The notes under the pieces are model-generated. The model saw only the letters and a program-made list of their open reading frames with translations, did no database searches and was not told the origin of the DNA. Below, piece after piece: positions 13,003 through 17,065 of a stretch of 34,234 nucleotides of DNA; the stretch's first letter is position 1; each line of letters starts with the position of its first letter. The DNA is from an uncultured Pseudomonadota bacterium (lineage in GTDB: Bacteria > Pseudomonadota > Alphaproteobacteria > RF32 > CAG-239), in contig CASFJK010000015.1 in NCBI GenBank assembly GCA_949295025.1, forward strand, positions 1-34,234, written 5' to 3'. A program made the position numbers and the translations under genes.

Positions 13003-13020
13003 TTGGCACGCATTTTGCAT
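13003..13020 (+). promoter_or_regulatory. Sigma-54 (RpoN) promoter of the flagellar operon
   Basis: TTGGCACG (13003-13010), four bases, then TTGCA (13015-13019) match the sigma-54 -24/-12 consensus TGGCACG-N4-TTGC exactly. The predicted start is near 13030, about 39 bases before flgF. In alphaproteobacteria such as Caulobacter, basal-body operons of this kind are RpoN- and FlbD-type-activator-dependent, so a sigma-54 activator is expected; no enhancer site was identified. Confidence 0.85.
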
Positions 13021-13068
13021 TATATTCCCCAAATGATTTTAATTATCCAAACTATTGGGGAGAATATA
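13021..13068 (+). promoter_or_regulatory. Inverted repeat enclosing the flgF ribosome site
   Basis: TATATTCCCCAA (13021-13032) is complementary to TTGGGG plus AATATA (13055-13060 and 13063-13068), leaving a two-base bulge AG and a 22-base loop. The right arm contains the flgF Shine-Dalgarno GGGGAG. Most of the left arm lies upstream of the predicted sigma-54 start, so the hairpin could form only in longer read-through RNA. Confidence 0.6.
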
Positions 13069-13821
13069 ATGGATAATACAAAATATGTGGCTTTGTCACG
13101 CCAAATGGCTTTGTGGAAACAGATGGATGTTGTTTCCAACAATATGGCCAATATGAATACATCTGGCTATAAACAAGATGAAGCTATCTTCACATCTTTT
13201 TTGCACCAACCGGAAAACACAGCTCAAGTTCAAGGTTTGGCTGCAAAACCTTTATATTTCACACAAGATTATGCAACATATAAAAACTTTCAAGAAGGCA
13301 TATTGGCAGAAACAGGTAATGATTTAGATGTTGCCATTAAGGGAGATGCTTTTTTTGCCGTTCAAACAGCTGATGGCGAAAAATATACAAGAAAAGGTAA
13401 CTTTTCTTTAGATTCGAATGGCATGTTGGTAACTTCAGAAGGGGATGCTGTTTTATCAGAAGCCAATGAACCGTTTTTCTTTGCCCCGGGTGAGAAAGAA
13501 ATTTCAATTCTGGAAAATGGCGAGGTTTATACCGAAAACGGTTTAATCGGAAAATTAAAAATTGTTAGTTTTGCCGATAATCAAAAATTGCAAAAAGTTG
13601 CAAATACCATGTTCGAAAATGTAGATGGCAATGCCATGGTCATTGGCGAAGATAATATCCGCGTAATGCAAGGCAAATTAGAAAAATCAAATGTAAATTC
13701 AATTGAAGAAATGACCAAGTTGGTCAACTTGCAACGTTCTTATGAATATGTACAACAGATGATAGATGAAGAACATGATCGTCTGTCCAACACAATAACA
13801 GCTTTTGCGCAAATGATTTAA
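13069..13821 (+). CDS. flgF: Flagellar basal-body rod protein FlgF
   Basis: Proximal rod component of the flagellar basal body, exported by the flagellar type III system. The N-terminal rod motif is clear (MDNTKYVALSRQMALWKQMDVVSNNMANMNTSGYK, about residues 1-35). The central domain contains GDAFFAVQTADGEKYTRKGNFSLD. The C-terminal rod helix includes NSIEEMTKLVNLQRSYEYVQQMI. 250 residues is typical. The ATG at 13069 has GGGGAGA seven bases upstream. First gene of the sigma-54-driven operon; the 22-base gap to flgG carries the flgG ribosome site. Confidence 0.95.
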   Translation: MDNTKYVALSRQMALWKQMDVVSNNMANMNTSGYKQDEAIFTSFLHQPENTAQVQGLAAKPLYFTQDYATYKNFQEGILAETGNDLDVAIKGDAFFAVQTADGEKYTRKGNFSLDSNGMLVTSEGDAVLSEANEPFFFAPGEKEISILENGEVYTENGLIGKLKIVSFADNQKLQKVANTMFENVDGNAMVIGEDNIRVMQGKLEKSNVNSIEEMTKLVNLQRSYEYVQQMIDEEHDRLSNTITAFAQMI

Positions 13822-13829
13822 TTTATAAA

Positions 13830-13839
13830 TAGGGAATAA
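13830..13839 (+). promoter_or_regulatory. flgG Shine-Dalgarno region, antisense to two downstream RNA loops
   Basis: TAGGGAATAA, containing the AGGGA ribosome site of flgG, is the exact reverse complement of TTATTCCCTA, which occurs in two hairpin loops at 16160-16169 and 16266-16275. The match with the second loop extends to 11 bases. Confidence 0.7.
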
Positions 13840-13843
13840 AAAA

Positions 13844-14632
13844 ATGAGATCTTTAAATATCGGTGCAACCGGAATGCTGGCACAACAAACCAATGTTGAT
13901 GTAATTTCCAACAACATTGCCAATATGAACACCACGGCATATACCAAACGTCGTGCAGAGTTCAATGATTTGGTTTATCAAAATTATATCCGTCCCGGAG
14001 CTCAATCAACAGCCGGACAAACTATCGTTCCTGCCGGTGTACAATTGGGAACAGGTGTTAGAACCGCTGCTATCTACCGCATTACTGATGGTTATGGTGT
14101 CACCAAAACCGATGCCCCGTTAGATTTAGCCATTCAAGGCCGTGGATATTTTCAAATTGAGCTGCCGGAAGGAAAGGGCACAGCCTATACCAGAGATGGT
14201 GCTTTCCAACAAAACGGCGATGGTGTAATTGTCACTCATGATGGCTATGTTGTTCAACCAGAAATTACCATTCCCGATGATGCCGTAGAGGTCTATGTAA
14301 ATACTTCCGGTGAAGTTTGGGTAAAACAAGATGGCGAAACCGATGAGGTTAATGTCGGCCAATTAGAATTAGCCACTTTTGTTAATGAAGCCGGTTTGGA
14401 AGCCATTGGAAATAACTTATTTACAGAGACTGAAGCTTCAGGTGCCCCGGTTTTAGATAATCCGGATGCAGAAGGTTTTGGTTCAATCTTGCAAGGATAT
14501 TTGCAAACATCAAATGTCAATGCCGTATCCGAAATTACCGAGCTGGTTTCAGCACAACGTGCTTATGAAATGAACTCAAAAATCATTCAAACTTCAGATG
14601 AAATGTTAAGCACAATTAATCAGATGAAGTAA
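13844..14632 (+). CDS. flgG: Flagellar distal rod protein FlgG
   Basis: Forms the distal rod that crosses the periplasm through the P and L rings. It carries the conserved N terminus MRSLNIGATGMLAQQTNVDVISNNIANMNT, the Dx-domain segment LAIQGRGYFQIELPEGKGTAYTRDG, and the C-terminal SNVNAVSEITELVSAQRAYEMNSKIIQTSDEML. The normal family length of about 262 residues indicates an intact gene. AGGGA ten bases upstream is the ribosome site. It is the second gene of the flg operon, and its translation start may be a target of the structured RNA further down the operon. Confidence 0.97.
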   Translation: MRSLNIGATGMLAQQTNVDVISNNIANMNTTAYTKRRAEFNDLVYQNYIRPGAQSTAGQTIVPAGVQLGTGVRTAAIYRITDGYGVTKTDAPLDLAIQGRGYFQIELPEGKGTAYTRDGAFQQNGDGVIVTHDGYVVQPEITIPDDAVEVYVNTSGEVWVKQDGETDEVNVGQLELATFVNEAGLEAIGNNLFTETEASGAPVLDNPDAEGFGSILQGYLQTSNVNAVSEITELVSAQRAYEMNSKIIQTSDEMLSTINQMK

Positions 14633-14647
14633 GTAAGGATTGAATAA

Positions 14648-15355
14648 ATGTTCAAATTTTTGCCTTTCATAGTTTTATCAATCTTTGTTTTAGGAATAAC
14701 TTCAGCCAAAGCCGATGTACAAATTTCTTCCGATGAAGTAGGTGCAGCAATAGTTGAAGAATTTTCTAATCAAGGTTTGGATGAAGATATGGAGTTGGAT
14801 GTTTTTGGCGGGCAAAGCAGCTTTTTTATTCCCCAAGCCAAACAAGCCAAAATAATGATAAGCAACTTAAAATATGATGAAACACAAAATAAGTTTTCTG
14901 CTGACGTGGAAATTTTTGCCGATGGTAAATCTGTCGCTAAAAGTTCGTTAGTCGGAAAATATTACATTATGGAAGAAGTTTATGTTCCGGCTCGCAATAT
15001 TGATAAAGGCGAAATTTTACAAGATGATGATTTGAAAAAAATCAAAATTCGCAGCACGCGTCTCAAACCTATGTATGTTACAGATTTGAGCAAACTAAAA
15101 GGAAAAGAAGTAAAACGCGCCTTAAAATTGGGAAAATTGATTAGTGGCAAAGAAGTCGGAGAGCCTTTGTTGGTTCATAAAAATGATAAAGTAGATTTAA
15201 TTTATAAAACCGATCGTATGCAGATAATAGCCAAAGGCATTGCACAAGAAGATGGTTTCAAAGGTCAAAAGATAGAAGTTGAAAACACTCAAAGTCACAA
15301 AAAAATATATGGCACGGTTATCTCTACAGATACCATAGAGATAGAAAGACAATAA
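14648..15355 (+). CDS. flgA: Flagellar P-ring assembly chaperone FlgA
   Basis: Periplasmic chaperone needed to assemble FlgI into the P ring. A Sec signal peptide covers residues 1-22, ending TSAKA before DV. The C-terminal SAF domain begins near YVPARNIDKGEILQDDDL and runs to the end with LISGKEV, VDLIYKTDRMQIIAKGIAQEDG and GQKIEVENTQSHKKIYGTV. 235 residues is typical. AAGGA nine bases upstream. The partner flgI is not in this window, so P-ring genes must lie elsewhere. Confidence 0.93.
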   Translation: MFKFLPFIVLSIFVLGITSAKADVQISSDEVGAAIVEEFSNQGLDEDMELDVFGGQSSFFIPQAKQAKIMISNLKYDETQNKFSADVEIFADGKSVAKSSLVGKYYIMEEVYVPARNIDKGEILQDDDLKKIKIRSTRLKPMYVTDLSKLKGKEVKRALKLGKLISGKEVGEPLLVHKNDKVDLIYKTDRMQIIAKGIAQEDGFKGQKIEVENTQSHKKIYGTVISTDTIEIERQ

Positions 15356-15369
15356 GGAGAGTAAAGAAA

Positions 15370-16137
15370 ATGATGAAGCAAACATGCAACCCTTTAATAA
15401 AGAGCACAATGGCTTTATTAATGGCCACTTCACTTTCCGGATGTGCAGGTATGTGGGATAGATTAACTTCTGTCGGAGCCGAGCCCAAAATGACCAATAT
15501 TGAAAATCCGGTTGAAGCGGAAGGATATAAACCTGTATCTATGCCTATGCCTGAAGCTCCTGAACAAAAACAATATGCCAATTCTCTCTGGCGTCAAGGC
15601 TCAACAGGTTTCTTTAAAGACCAAAGAGCTTCTAAAGTAGGAGATATTATCACCGTAAATATTGTCGCTAAAGATGCCGCCATTATGGAAAACGAAATGG
15701 AACAAAATCGTGATGATAACTCGGATACCATGGGTATTGGTGCTTTAGCCGGTTTTGAAAAGAATATCAGTACAGTTCTGCCGAGTGATAATAAAATGGA
15801 TGCCTTGGTAGATATTTCTTCCAATAGAGAAATTTCTGCTGATGGAAAGGTTGATCGCCAAGAAAAAATAGATGTTACCATGGCAGCTGTTGTGACACAA
15901 GTTTTGCCAAATGGCAATTTAGTTATTGAAGGCACACAAGAAATCCGCGTGAGCTATGAACTTAGAAGATTAACTGTGAAAGGTATCATTCGCAGAGCCG
16001 ATATCAGTTCCAACAATACCATTCAATCAGACAAAATTGCCGAGTTGAGAGTTTCATATGGTGGCAAGGGTGTTGTTTCTGATGTTCAACAACCAAGATA
16101 TGGACGTCAGTTCTTAGATATCATTGCGCCTTTCTAG
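15370..16137 (+). CDS. flgH: Flagellar L-ring lipoprotein FlgH
   Basis: Outer-membrane L-ring subunit. The signal peptide ends in a lipobox LSGC, so it is lipidated and sent to the outer membrane. FlgH motifs include SLWRQGSTGFFKDQRASKVGDIITVNI and the C-terminal GIIRRADISSNNTIQSDKIAELRVSYGGKG and QPRYGRQFLDIIAPF. Two ATGs in a row (15370, 15373) follow AAGGAG; spacing of ten bases favours the first. The stop is followed four bases later by the first hairpin of the structured RNA. Confidence 0.95.
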   Translation: MMKQTCNPLIKSTMALLMATSLSGCAGMWDRLTSVGAEPKMTNIENPVEAEGYKPVSMPMPEAPEQKQYANSLWRQGSTGFFKDQRASKVGDIITVNIVAKDAAIMENEMEQNRDDNSDTMGIGALAGFEKNISTVLPSDNKMDALVDISSNREISADGKVDRQEKIDVTMAAVVTQVLPNGNLVIEGTQEIRVSYELRRLTVKGIIRRADISSNNTIQSDKIAELRVSYGGKGVVSDVQQPRYGRQFLDIIAPF

Positions 16138-16141
16138 CAAG

Positions 16142-16346
16142 TTTTGTTCACTTCTGTTGTTATTCCCTAAGCAGAAGTGGAGCAAAAGAATTATTATGTT
16201 CCCAAAAGCGAGAAAAAATCTCCCCATTTTTTCTCAAAACTTTAGAATATTTTAAGTTCATTGAATTATTCCCTATAGATGAACCGAGAATATTCTGTTC
16301 TTCCCAAGACCTGCCGTTATAAAAAAACGGCAGGTTCCGAAGGAGG
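16142..16346 (+). ncRNA. Five-hairpin C-rich-loop RNA between flgH and the FlaF-like gene
   Basis: Five hairpins stand in a row. HP1 spans 16142-16187 (about 15 bp with one bulged G; loop 16157-16171). HP2 is 16210-16235 (10 bp, loop CTCCCC). HP3 is 16244-16296 (7 bp, internal loop, 6 bp; loop 16263-16277). HP4 is 16299-16309 (4 bp, loop CCC). HP5 is 16310-16334 (9 bp). HP1 and HP3 loops share TTATTCCCTA, the reverse complement of the flgG ribosome site; the HP2 loop is complementary to the flgF ribosome site. Pairs that are G-U on the plus strand (16148/16180, 16252/16288, 16262/16278) would be A-C on the minus strand, so the plus strand is favoured. No internal promoter or poly-U terminator was seen; it may be a processed 3'UTR or leader RNA. 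Confidence 0.5.
16340..16346 (+). promoter_or_regulatory. Perfect Shine-Dalgarno without a nearby start codon
   Basis: AAGGAGG matches the anti-Shine-Dalgarno fully, yet no ATG, GTG or TTG lies at a usable distance. The next ATG is 25 bases away and the real gene start 41 bases away, with its own AAGGAA. It may be a ribosome standby site or a pairing partner in the leader. Confidence 0.4.
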
Positions 16347-16387
16347 CAATAAAATAAATTAAAAAAAATAAATGAAGGAAGTAAAAA

Positions 16388-17065
16388 ATGAACACAACCG
16401 TAAATCAAATTGATGTTGCTGAAAAAGAAGCCAAAGTTTTGAATAGCTTTGCCAATGCTTTGTTAAAAGCAGCAGAGAGTAACAATCAGCAAGAAAAACT
16501 GTTGGCTATAGATCACAATTTGAAACTTTGGGTTGAGATAGAAACATCGCTTAAAAGCGCAAAGAATTTGCTTCCCGATGAAGTCAAAAAGAATTTATTT
16601 AAATTGGCCGATTTTGTAAAATACCTGACTATGAGTAAAGGTATTAATATGACTAAAGAAGATTTCAAAAGCTTGGCCAATATCAATAATCAAATTTCTA
16701 TGGGTATTCAAGAGTCCGTAAAAAACAATTTGGCAGCAGAAGAAGCCTTTTCTTTGTTAAAATGCGCCATGGATTTAACCAAAGCCAAAGAAAAATCTAA
16801 TGCTGGAGAGCTGGCCAAAGCTTTGGATAATAATATGAAATTGTGGGTATATATTAAAACCTTGGCTAATTCTAAAAATAATAAAATACCGGAAGAAATA
16901 AGAGGTAATCTGACCAAATTAGCAGATTATGTTTCTCAAAAGACGATAGAAGTCGGACAAAATATTAATAATGTCAATGCTAAAGCGCTGGATAGTATGA
17001 TCAATACAAACTTGCAAATCAGCGAAGGATTGATGAGTAAACAACTGCAAAGTTTGAAAAAGTAA
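16388..17065 (+). CDS. Tandem FlaF-like flagellar regulator
   Basis: FlaF is an alphaproteobacterial regulator that, with FlbT, controls flagellin expression after transcription. This 225-residue protein contains two FlaF-like domains in tandem. Module 1 is about residues 10-108: NLKLWVEIE, LLPDEVKKNLFKLADFV, NINNQISMGI. Module 2 is about 115-216: NMKLWVYIK, KIPEEIRGNLTKLADYV, MINTNLQISEGL. The LW, (L/I)PxE and LAD(F/Y)V motifs are offset by 105 residues. Known FlaF proteins have one such domain in roughly 110-130 residues. AAGGAA seven bases upstream sets the start. Cytoplasmic, no signal peptide. It is the last gene of the operon and lies directly behind the structured RNA. The family call is by motif resemblance. 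Confidence 0.75.
   Translation: MNTTVNQIDVAEKEAKVLNSFANALLKAAESNNQQEKLLAIDHNLKLWVEIETSLKSAKNLLPDEVKKNLFKLADFVKYLTMSKGINMTKEDFKSLANINNQISMGIQESVKNNLAAEEAFSLLKCAMDLTKAKEKSNAGELAKALDNNMKLWVYIKTLANSKNNKIPEEIRGNLTKLADYVSQKTIEVGQNINNVNAKALDSMINTNLQISEGLMSKQLQSLKK

Follow-up and report, generated by a model that had tools for sequence, protein, structure and literature searches.

A predicted structured RNA in the flgH-flaF spacer of a flagellar operon carries C-rich loops complementary to the operon's own flgF and flgG ribosome sites

The spacer between flgH and flaF in the flagellar operon of an uncultured alphaproteobacterium is predicted to fold into a structured RNA whose C-rich loops are exactly complementary to the ribosome sites of two genes of that operon, flgF and flgG. 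We propose, with a probability of roughly 0.6, that this is a 3'UTR RNA which pairs with both ribosome sites and represses its own operon, a reading that is based on comparative sequence analysis. The first-pass annotation had suggested a 3'UTR-derived or leader riboregulator, and the fold, the loop motifs and the G-rich sites, which recur across 10 genera, agree with this suggestion, whereas independent drift of loops and sites could be excluded only in part.

The window, by which we mean the whole 34,234-nt stretch of DNA analysed, contains the operon on the plus strand, to which all coordinates refer. The rod protein genes flgF (13069-13821) and flgG (13844-14632) are followed by flgA (14648-15355), coding for the P-ring chaperone, flgH (15370-16137), coding for the L-ring protein and located immediately 5' of the spacer RNA, and flaF (16388-17065), located immediately 3' of it. 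A match to the sigma-54-type promoter consensus (TGGCACG-N4-TTGCA, 13004-13019) is found 5' of flgF. In the window, the FlaF protein (225 aa) consists of two FlaF domains in tandem, recognised as two Pfam stretches, and FlaF of the sister family has a single domain and about 108-112 aa in complete cases.

The spacer is 250 nt long, and the fold of positions 16120-16360 has an energy of -74.1 kcal/mol compared with a mean of -40.1 for shuffled sequences (z -7.75), with none of 200 shuffles folding as well. Five consecutive hairpins had been described at first; four of these are strong, but the fifth (16188-16201) has merely 4 bp, is negligible and does not rank with the others. HP1 (16142-16187) and HP3 (16243-16297) are long hairpins with the loops GUUAUUCCCUA and GAAUUAUUCCCUAUA, respectively, whereas HP2 (16210-16235) presents the hexaloop CUCCCC (16220-16225). 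The element AUUAUUAUGU (16190-16199), near-invariant among relatives, and a linker with a GUUCCC motif (16198-16207) precede HP2. Two further UCCC motifs had been proposed, of which the linker motif is present as described; the last UUCCC lies in the linker CUUCCCAAG between HP3 and HP4 (16300-16308) and therefore precedes HP4 instead of being located inside it. HP4 (16308-16336) is GC-rich, lacks a U-tract and occupies the position that a terminator-like hairpin with a C-rich loop takes in other genera.

The proposed complementarity to both ribosome sites was confirmed. The sequence TTATTCCCTA is present in the HP1 loop (16160-16169) and in the HP3 loop (16266-16275) and is the exact reverse complement of TAGGGAATAA (13830-13839) within the flgG ribosome site AUAGGGAAUAA (13829-13839), so that two copies of UUAUUCCCUA in the RNA face this site, with matches of 10 nt for HP1 and, as the HP3 copy reaches further (16266-16276 versus 13829-13839), 11 nt for HP3. 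Similarly, the HP2 loop lies inside TCTCCCCA (16219-16226), whose reverse complement is TGGGGAGA (13056-13063) within the flgF ribosome site UUGGGGAGA (13055-13063), an exact match of 8 nt in which CUCCCC complements GGGGAG. The computed duplex energies in the window are -12.7 kcal/mol for flgG and -13.8 kcal/mol for flgF. The flgF ribosome site is itself predicted to form a hairpin (13042-13077), in which AUUAUCC and, at the start codon, GGAUAAU form the stem and GGGGAG lies in the loop, and a six-base kissing contact between this loop and the CUCCCC loop of HP2 is possible in this model. A search against Rfam 15 gave no family at gathering score in the spacer interval, a tRNA elsewhere in the window being the sole match. 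Assignment to a known RNA family was rejected on this ground; the three sub-threshold Rfam matches (E 0.16-0.27) are eukaryotic by name. No description of an RNA from the flgH-flaF spacer was found in the open-licence literature of PubMed Central.

In the window's family, 43 of 83 genomes gave a FlgH match, as did 75 of the 154 genomes of the order, with all but one of the 75 belonging to the same family. One closely related genome is an uncultured Alphaproteobacteria metagenome-assembled genome (CALXPK010000074.1, FlgG 98%), and several of the closest records are, by their titles, roe deer gut samples. The record JAISFX010000086.1 (L205), titled Lactobacillus sp., contains the same alphaproteobacterial flagellar operon with an FlgG that is 81% identical, and is probably a mislabelled metagenome bin. 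In the first 43 genomes, a FlaF-like gene follows flgH after 196-423 nt and always on the same strand (43/43), and in 42 of them the start of flgF lies further upstream on that piece of sequence. Spacers from 72 of the 75 genomes were used, leaving out G153, an order-level relative with a masked spacer, and G122 and G123, which have no called flaF start.

Both the hairpins and the C-rich loops recur in these relatives. The 72 spacers, including that of the window, contain on average 3.64 [UC]CCC motifs and never fewer than two, compared with 0.44 in composition-matched shuffles, and GGGR motifs are found at 0.33 per spacer. The C residues of the motifs have a mean unpaired probability of 0.81 versus 0.30 for other C residues, and this value was higher in each of the 72 spacers. 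Folding is on average stronger on the plus strand (mean z -4.74, with 67/72 at or below -3) than on the minus strand (mean z -2.88), and a simple arm scan, which was run without a shuffled control, found hairpins enclosing [UC]CCC in all of the first 43 spacers. The loops are constant and the stems vary from genus to genus. When 58 sequences of the 5' module were simply aligned, RNAalifold gave six pairs, one of which is changed on both sides; because many rows of this alignment are one base out of register, a register-aware swap of the HP2 arms was used instead. HP2 is recognisable in 66 of 72 spacers, and in these 66 genomes two arms of the same spacer form 11.03 of 12 possible pairs, versus 8.93 when arms are swapped between genera, the largest of 300 swaps reaching 9.30. 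The covariance model R1, covering the 5' module and HP2, matched 63 of 135 genomes just downstream of flgH, although many of the matched sequences had been used to build the model. The informative result is therefore that each of the 63 positive genomes gave one match and no second copy, in a search whose stricter filters may miss weaker matches.

Upstream of HP2, the sequence AUUAUU-A/G-UG is near-invariant (66/72 spacers, missing in six spacers of genus g16), and by eye its UAUUAU could pair with AUAAUA in flgF codons 2-4. A small peptide starting at AUUAUU-AUG/GUG was considered and rejected, since the triplet is ATG in 62 and GTG in four cases but its frame relative to UCCCC is split 25/24/17, and since no SD-like sequence precedes it in the 66 spacers. 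Near the flaF end, 31 of the 72 spacers, for example L008, L014 and L025, carry TTTAAA-N13-20-TATATT/TTATAT/TATAAT, of which none was seen by eye in the window; this element is a possible separate flaF promoter.

The putative targets are conserved as well. All 72 flgF leaders contain GGGGA. The best fold leaves it unpaired in 58 leaders, a stem encloses it in 52, and in 51 leaders the stem reaches the start-codon region; the flgF hairpin is absent in six of seven folded genomes of genus g8. At flgG, GGGGA is present in 63 and GGGA in 73 of 74 sites, and GGGGA is also found at flgH in 53 of 75 genomes but at flgA in just 8 of 74. Codons 2-3 of flgF read GAT AAT in 71 of 72 genomes and GAT AAC in the remaining one. 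A constraint imposed on the RNA by the start-codon hairpin would produce such constancy, but an AT-rich codon bias may suffice to explain it.

If the loops pair with these sites, both should change together, and here the results are mixed. Own pairing was compared with shuffled pairing of spacers and sites by counting Watson-Crick matches through GGG:CCC in 70 genomes of 10 genera (G064 and G148, which have no usable flgF start, were left out); relatedness was not removed in this test. The mean own match was 7.94 versus 7.12 for flgG, a value reached by none of 20,000 permutations, and 8.89 versus 8.52 for flgF, reached by 1.0%; the latter difference was gone once G-U pairs were allowed (z 0.04), and within genus g12 the value for flgG was p=0.057. 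When the spacer was read backwards, the match fell from 8.89 to 5.46 for flgF and from 7.94 to 7.00 for flgG, where six of the 10 genera showed no gain over this control (g7, g8 and g10 negative, g2, g13 and g16 zero). The longest exact matches to flgF extend over 14 nt in G012 and 13 nt in G043 and G096, and in G034 and G111 a single loop matches both flgF and flgG over 12 nt each. Matches to flgF of at least 12 nt occur in nine of 70 genomes with the own site, compared with 6.9% when the site is taken from a different member of the genus and 1.5% when it comes from another genus, whereas matches of 9-10 nt are as common with sites from other genera as with the own site. Furthermore, flgG sites with three Gs coincide with motifs with three Cs: at least two three-C motifs are present in seven of nine genomes with a three-G site, all seven in genera g1 and g15, versus three of the 61 others, among which G096, lacking GGGA, was placed. 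The exceptions are G106 and G113 (three Gs without three Cs) and G022, G010 and G024 (three Cs without three Gs).

Tests that take relatedness into account, by exchanging sites between nearest relatives or permuting whole genera, gave a less clear picture. For flgF, the own site was better in seven pairs and worse in four, with 23 ties, which is not significant (p=0.27). For flgG, 12 pairs were better, eight worse and 15 tied (sign test p=0.25; Wilcoxon test, chosen post hoc, p=0.016), and among pairs at least 2% apart the result was 13 versus 8 (p=0.19). When whole genera were permuted and the longest match was taken irrespective of its kind, the values were 0.18 for flgF and 0.011 for flgG. 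The next base of flgF is complementary at 11 of 19 sites; of the eight others, one would form a G-U pair. As a further target, flgH showed a weak difference between own and shuffled pairing (z 1.9 strict, 2.6 with G-U) and a pair swap of 9 versus 2 (p=0.03), but flgA, the intended negative control, gave 6 versus 1 (p=0.06), and the flgH swap should therefore not be read strongly. Since the UCCCC/GGGGA core hardly varies, most of the complementarity cannot reveal co-change. Independent drift of loops and sites is excluded in places, namely by the three-G/three-C pattern in two genera and by the 12-14 nt matches to flgF, but not by the swaps, which gave mixed results for flgG and no significant one for flgF. 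We conclude that the sequences support direct pairing between loops and sites in parts of the tree but do not prove it for the whole of it.

Based on these observations, we propose that the spacer gives rise to a structured plus-strand RNA, which would form the 3' end of the flgF-flgG-flgA-flgH mRNA and might be processed into a separate sRNA. Its hairpins would present their C-rich loops to the ribosome sites, CUCCCC of HP2 to the hexaloop GGGGAG of flgF and the loops of HP1 and HP3 to flgG, and pairing would block ribosomes on flgF and flgG, such that a product of the operon would limit the translation of the operon's own first genes by negative feedback. What the analysis shows is the predicted structure, the conservation of loops and targets and the exact complementarity; we infer that the spacer is transcribed as a 3'UTR, that pairing takes place in cells, that its effect is repressive and that it acts in trans rather than in cis. 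A terminator-like hairpin is found 5' of flaF in 24 of 72 spacers under a strict rule, which favours a 3'UTR RNA in those genomes. It is absent in the window and not called in six of the seven genomes of the window's genus, and since HP4 of the window lacks a U-tract, the RNA may here be a flaF leader. Most likely, it is a self-targeting 3'UTR RNA that is leader-like in the window species. Hfq is present in the genome.

One might go further and speculate that the operon contains a two-sided kissing-loop circuit, in which the GGGGAG hairpin loop of flgF faces the CUCCCC loops of the 3'UTR, a single loop serves in some genomes as a fused antisense element for both flgF and flgG, and the 3' end of the polycistronic mRNA reports completion of the operon and thereby resets the translation of its first genes, in cis or in trans. 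We hold this more elaborate proposal tentatively, as possible rather than probable.

Among the alternatives, we consider it unlikely, but worth weighing, that the same pairing takes place mainly in cis, with the hairpins at the 3' end forming kissing contacts with the ribosome sites at the 5' end of their own mRNA or, in the window species, tying the flaF leader to the operon, and that no free sRNA is made. The constant gene order on one strand with flgF upstream, the single copy found by R1 under its stricter filters, the location of the flgF site within a hairpin loop in the majority of genomes and the scarcity of strict terminator calls in the window's genus (six of seven genomes without one) would all suit pairing in cis. 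On the other hand, such pairing would have to bridge about 3 kb of translated mRNA, and in the 24 spacers with a terminator-like hairpin the RNA would end before flaF. A terminator-like end is usual for 3'UTR sRNAs.

Somewhat more doubtful is a broad anti-ribosome-site RNA acting on many mRNAs with GGGGA, for which flgF and flgG would be incidental. Throughout the genome, GGGGA is located 4-9 nt before an ATG 99 times, compared with 27 for the reversed pattern, and the sRNAs sX13 and NfeR1 are also described as acting on several mRNAs. The frequency of GGGGA also counts against our preferred explanation, as the motif may simply be an SD variant. However, all 63 R1 matches adjoin flgH, and among the operon sites scored the long matches and the three-G/three-C co-change concern flgF and flgG. 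The idea that other flagellar mRNAs are targets, raised initially, found little support: among the flagellar genes recognised in other stretches of the genome that were read, with names assigned from sequence, GGGGA was limited to a second flgF start and one fliN-like gene and was absent before flgE, flgD, flgK and flgL. This second start is located at a contig end in G000 (C26:12904-13303; L086, L127) and has a similar type of leader with a sigma-54-type site and GATTGGGGA. Its protein begins with MDNINYIAL, which is closer to genus g12, and the genome has a single FlgH match; it belongs either to a second operon or to assembly contamination. Because the cis and the broad readings share the pairing with our preferred explanation, the likelihoods that we assign to the different readings overlap and do not add up to one.

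It is more improbable still that the C-rich loops bind a protein, with FlbT as the candidate, and that their likeness to complements of ribosome sites is secondary. Of the 83 family genomes, 41 have FlbT, and all but one of these are among the 43 with FlgH; loops that are kept while stems change, the non-significant flgF swap and the near-invariant AUUAUUAUGU, which has no known partner, would also suit protein binding. A fixed protein motif would, however, not need matches of 12-14 nt or changes that follow the target in two genera, and the conserved element at flgF and flgG is the complement of the loop motif, not the same motif. Lastly, it is very improbable that the minus strand yields a CsrA-type sponge or that the hairpins solely protect or terminate the mRNA: the minus-strand loops do read GGGA and some final hairpins are terminator-like, but folding is on average stronger and terminator-like U-tracts are found on the plus strand, CsrA (PF02599) was not found in the genome although the positive controls were, which led us to reject the sponge, and protection leaves the conserved UCCC loops unexplained.

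By analogy, and with no claim of membership in any of these groups, the spacer RNA may work like sX13, RNAIII, the alpha-r14/cuckoo RNAs and OppZ. RNAIII of Staphylococcus aureus is an RNA from another phylum and is not known to derive from its target operon. Its C-rich stem-loops are described as binding ribosome sites and forming kissing complexes with rot mRNA (PMC3771888). For sX13 of Xanthomonas, three stems with C-rich loops (CCCC, CCCCC) and the regulation of many mRNAs have been reported, the repressed ones predominantly carrying G-rich motifs near the start codon (PMC3771888). C-rich loops and G-rich motifs near the starts of putative targets are also found here, a functional analogy without a claim of homology, but the spacer RNA belongs to a flagellar operon, whose own sites it matches best. 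NfeR1, an alphaproteobacterial alpha-r14 sRNA of the cuckoo group, is described with three hairpins, one anti-SD motif and highly variable stems, and as silencing a translation start (PMC10746234). The spacer RNA shares several hairpins, variable stems and a constant C-rich loop with this group; it differs in its motifs (UCCC(C), CUCCCC), genes and targets. The cuckoo motif CCUCCUCCC, which members of that group carry in the unpaired regions of each hairpin, was found in none of the 72 family spacers, CCTCCTCCC in none of these and in none of 17 sister or outgroup loci, and CTCCTCCC only in the sister locus L295. In Vibrio cholerae, OppZ and CarZ are operon-3'UTR sRNAs reported to pair with their own transcript and inhibit its translation (PMC7398697). 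In 70 genomes the position and complementarity of the spacer RNA would fit this design, whereas the host, the operon and the multi-loop C-rich architecture are different, and processing and repression are here proposed only. An RNA of this type would be stable and released by RNase E. Among flagellar RNAs, Campylobacter jejuni offers a precedent in CJnc230 (FlmE), which is processed from the RpoN-dependent flgE mRNA and whose reported direct targets code for the flagella-interaction regulator Cj1387c and for FlgM (PMC11187230). Like the spacer RNA it is encoded downstream of a flagellar gene, but its reported targets are outside its own operon and its host is unrelated.

Outside the family, GGGGA was found within 32 nt in none of 55 flgF leaders (the start of L213 is mis-called). 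In the sister family f74, of which 11 of 12 genomes were examined (G534 was left out), GGGGA is present at flgF in two (L297, L305), and a single hairpin with a C-rich loop was seen by eye at the flgH-flaF junction in six of 11. In three of these six, L295, L297 and L298, the longest match to flgF is C-rich and 6-9 nt long, as for UUUUCCUCC versus GGAGGAAAA of the own flgF in L298, and in the other three it is not C-rich. A simple anti-ribosome-site hairpin may have arisen first and then been multiplied in the window's family.

Taken together, our analysis points to a possible RNA feedback loop inside the flagellar operon of uncultured, partly gut-dwelling bacteria. If this is true, regulator and targets would share one operon and change together in parts of the tree, and two separately known designs, sRNAs with C-rich loops and self-targeting 3'UTR sRNAs, would be united in one RNA. 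The approximately 70 natural variants of loops and targets would then provide a system with which to learn how short loop-loop contacts set the translation of rod genes.
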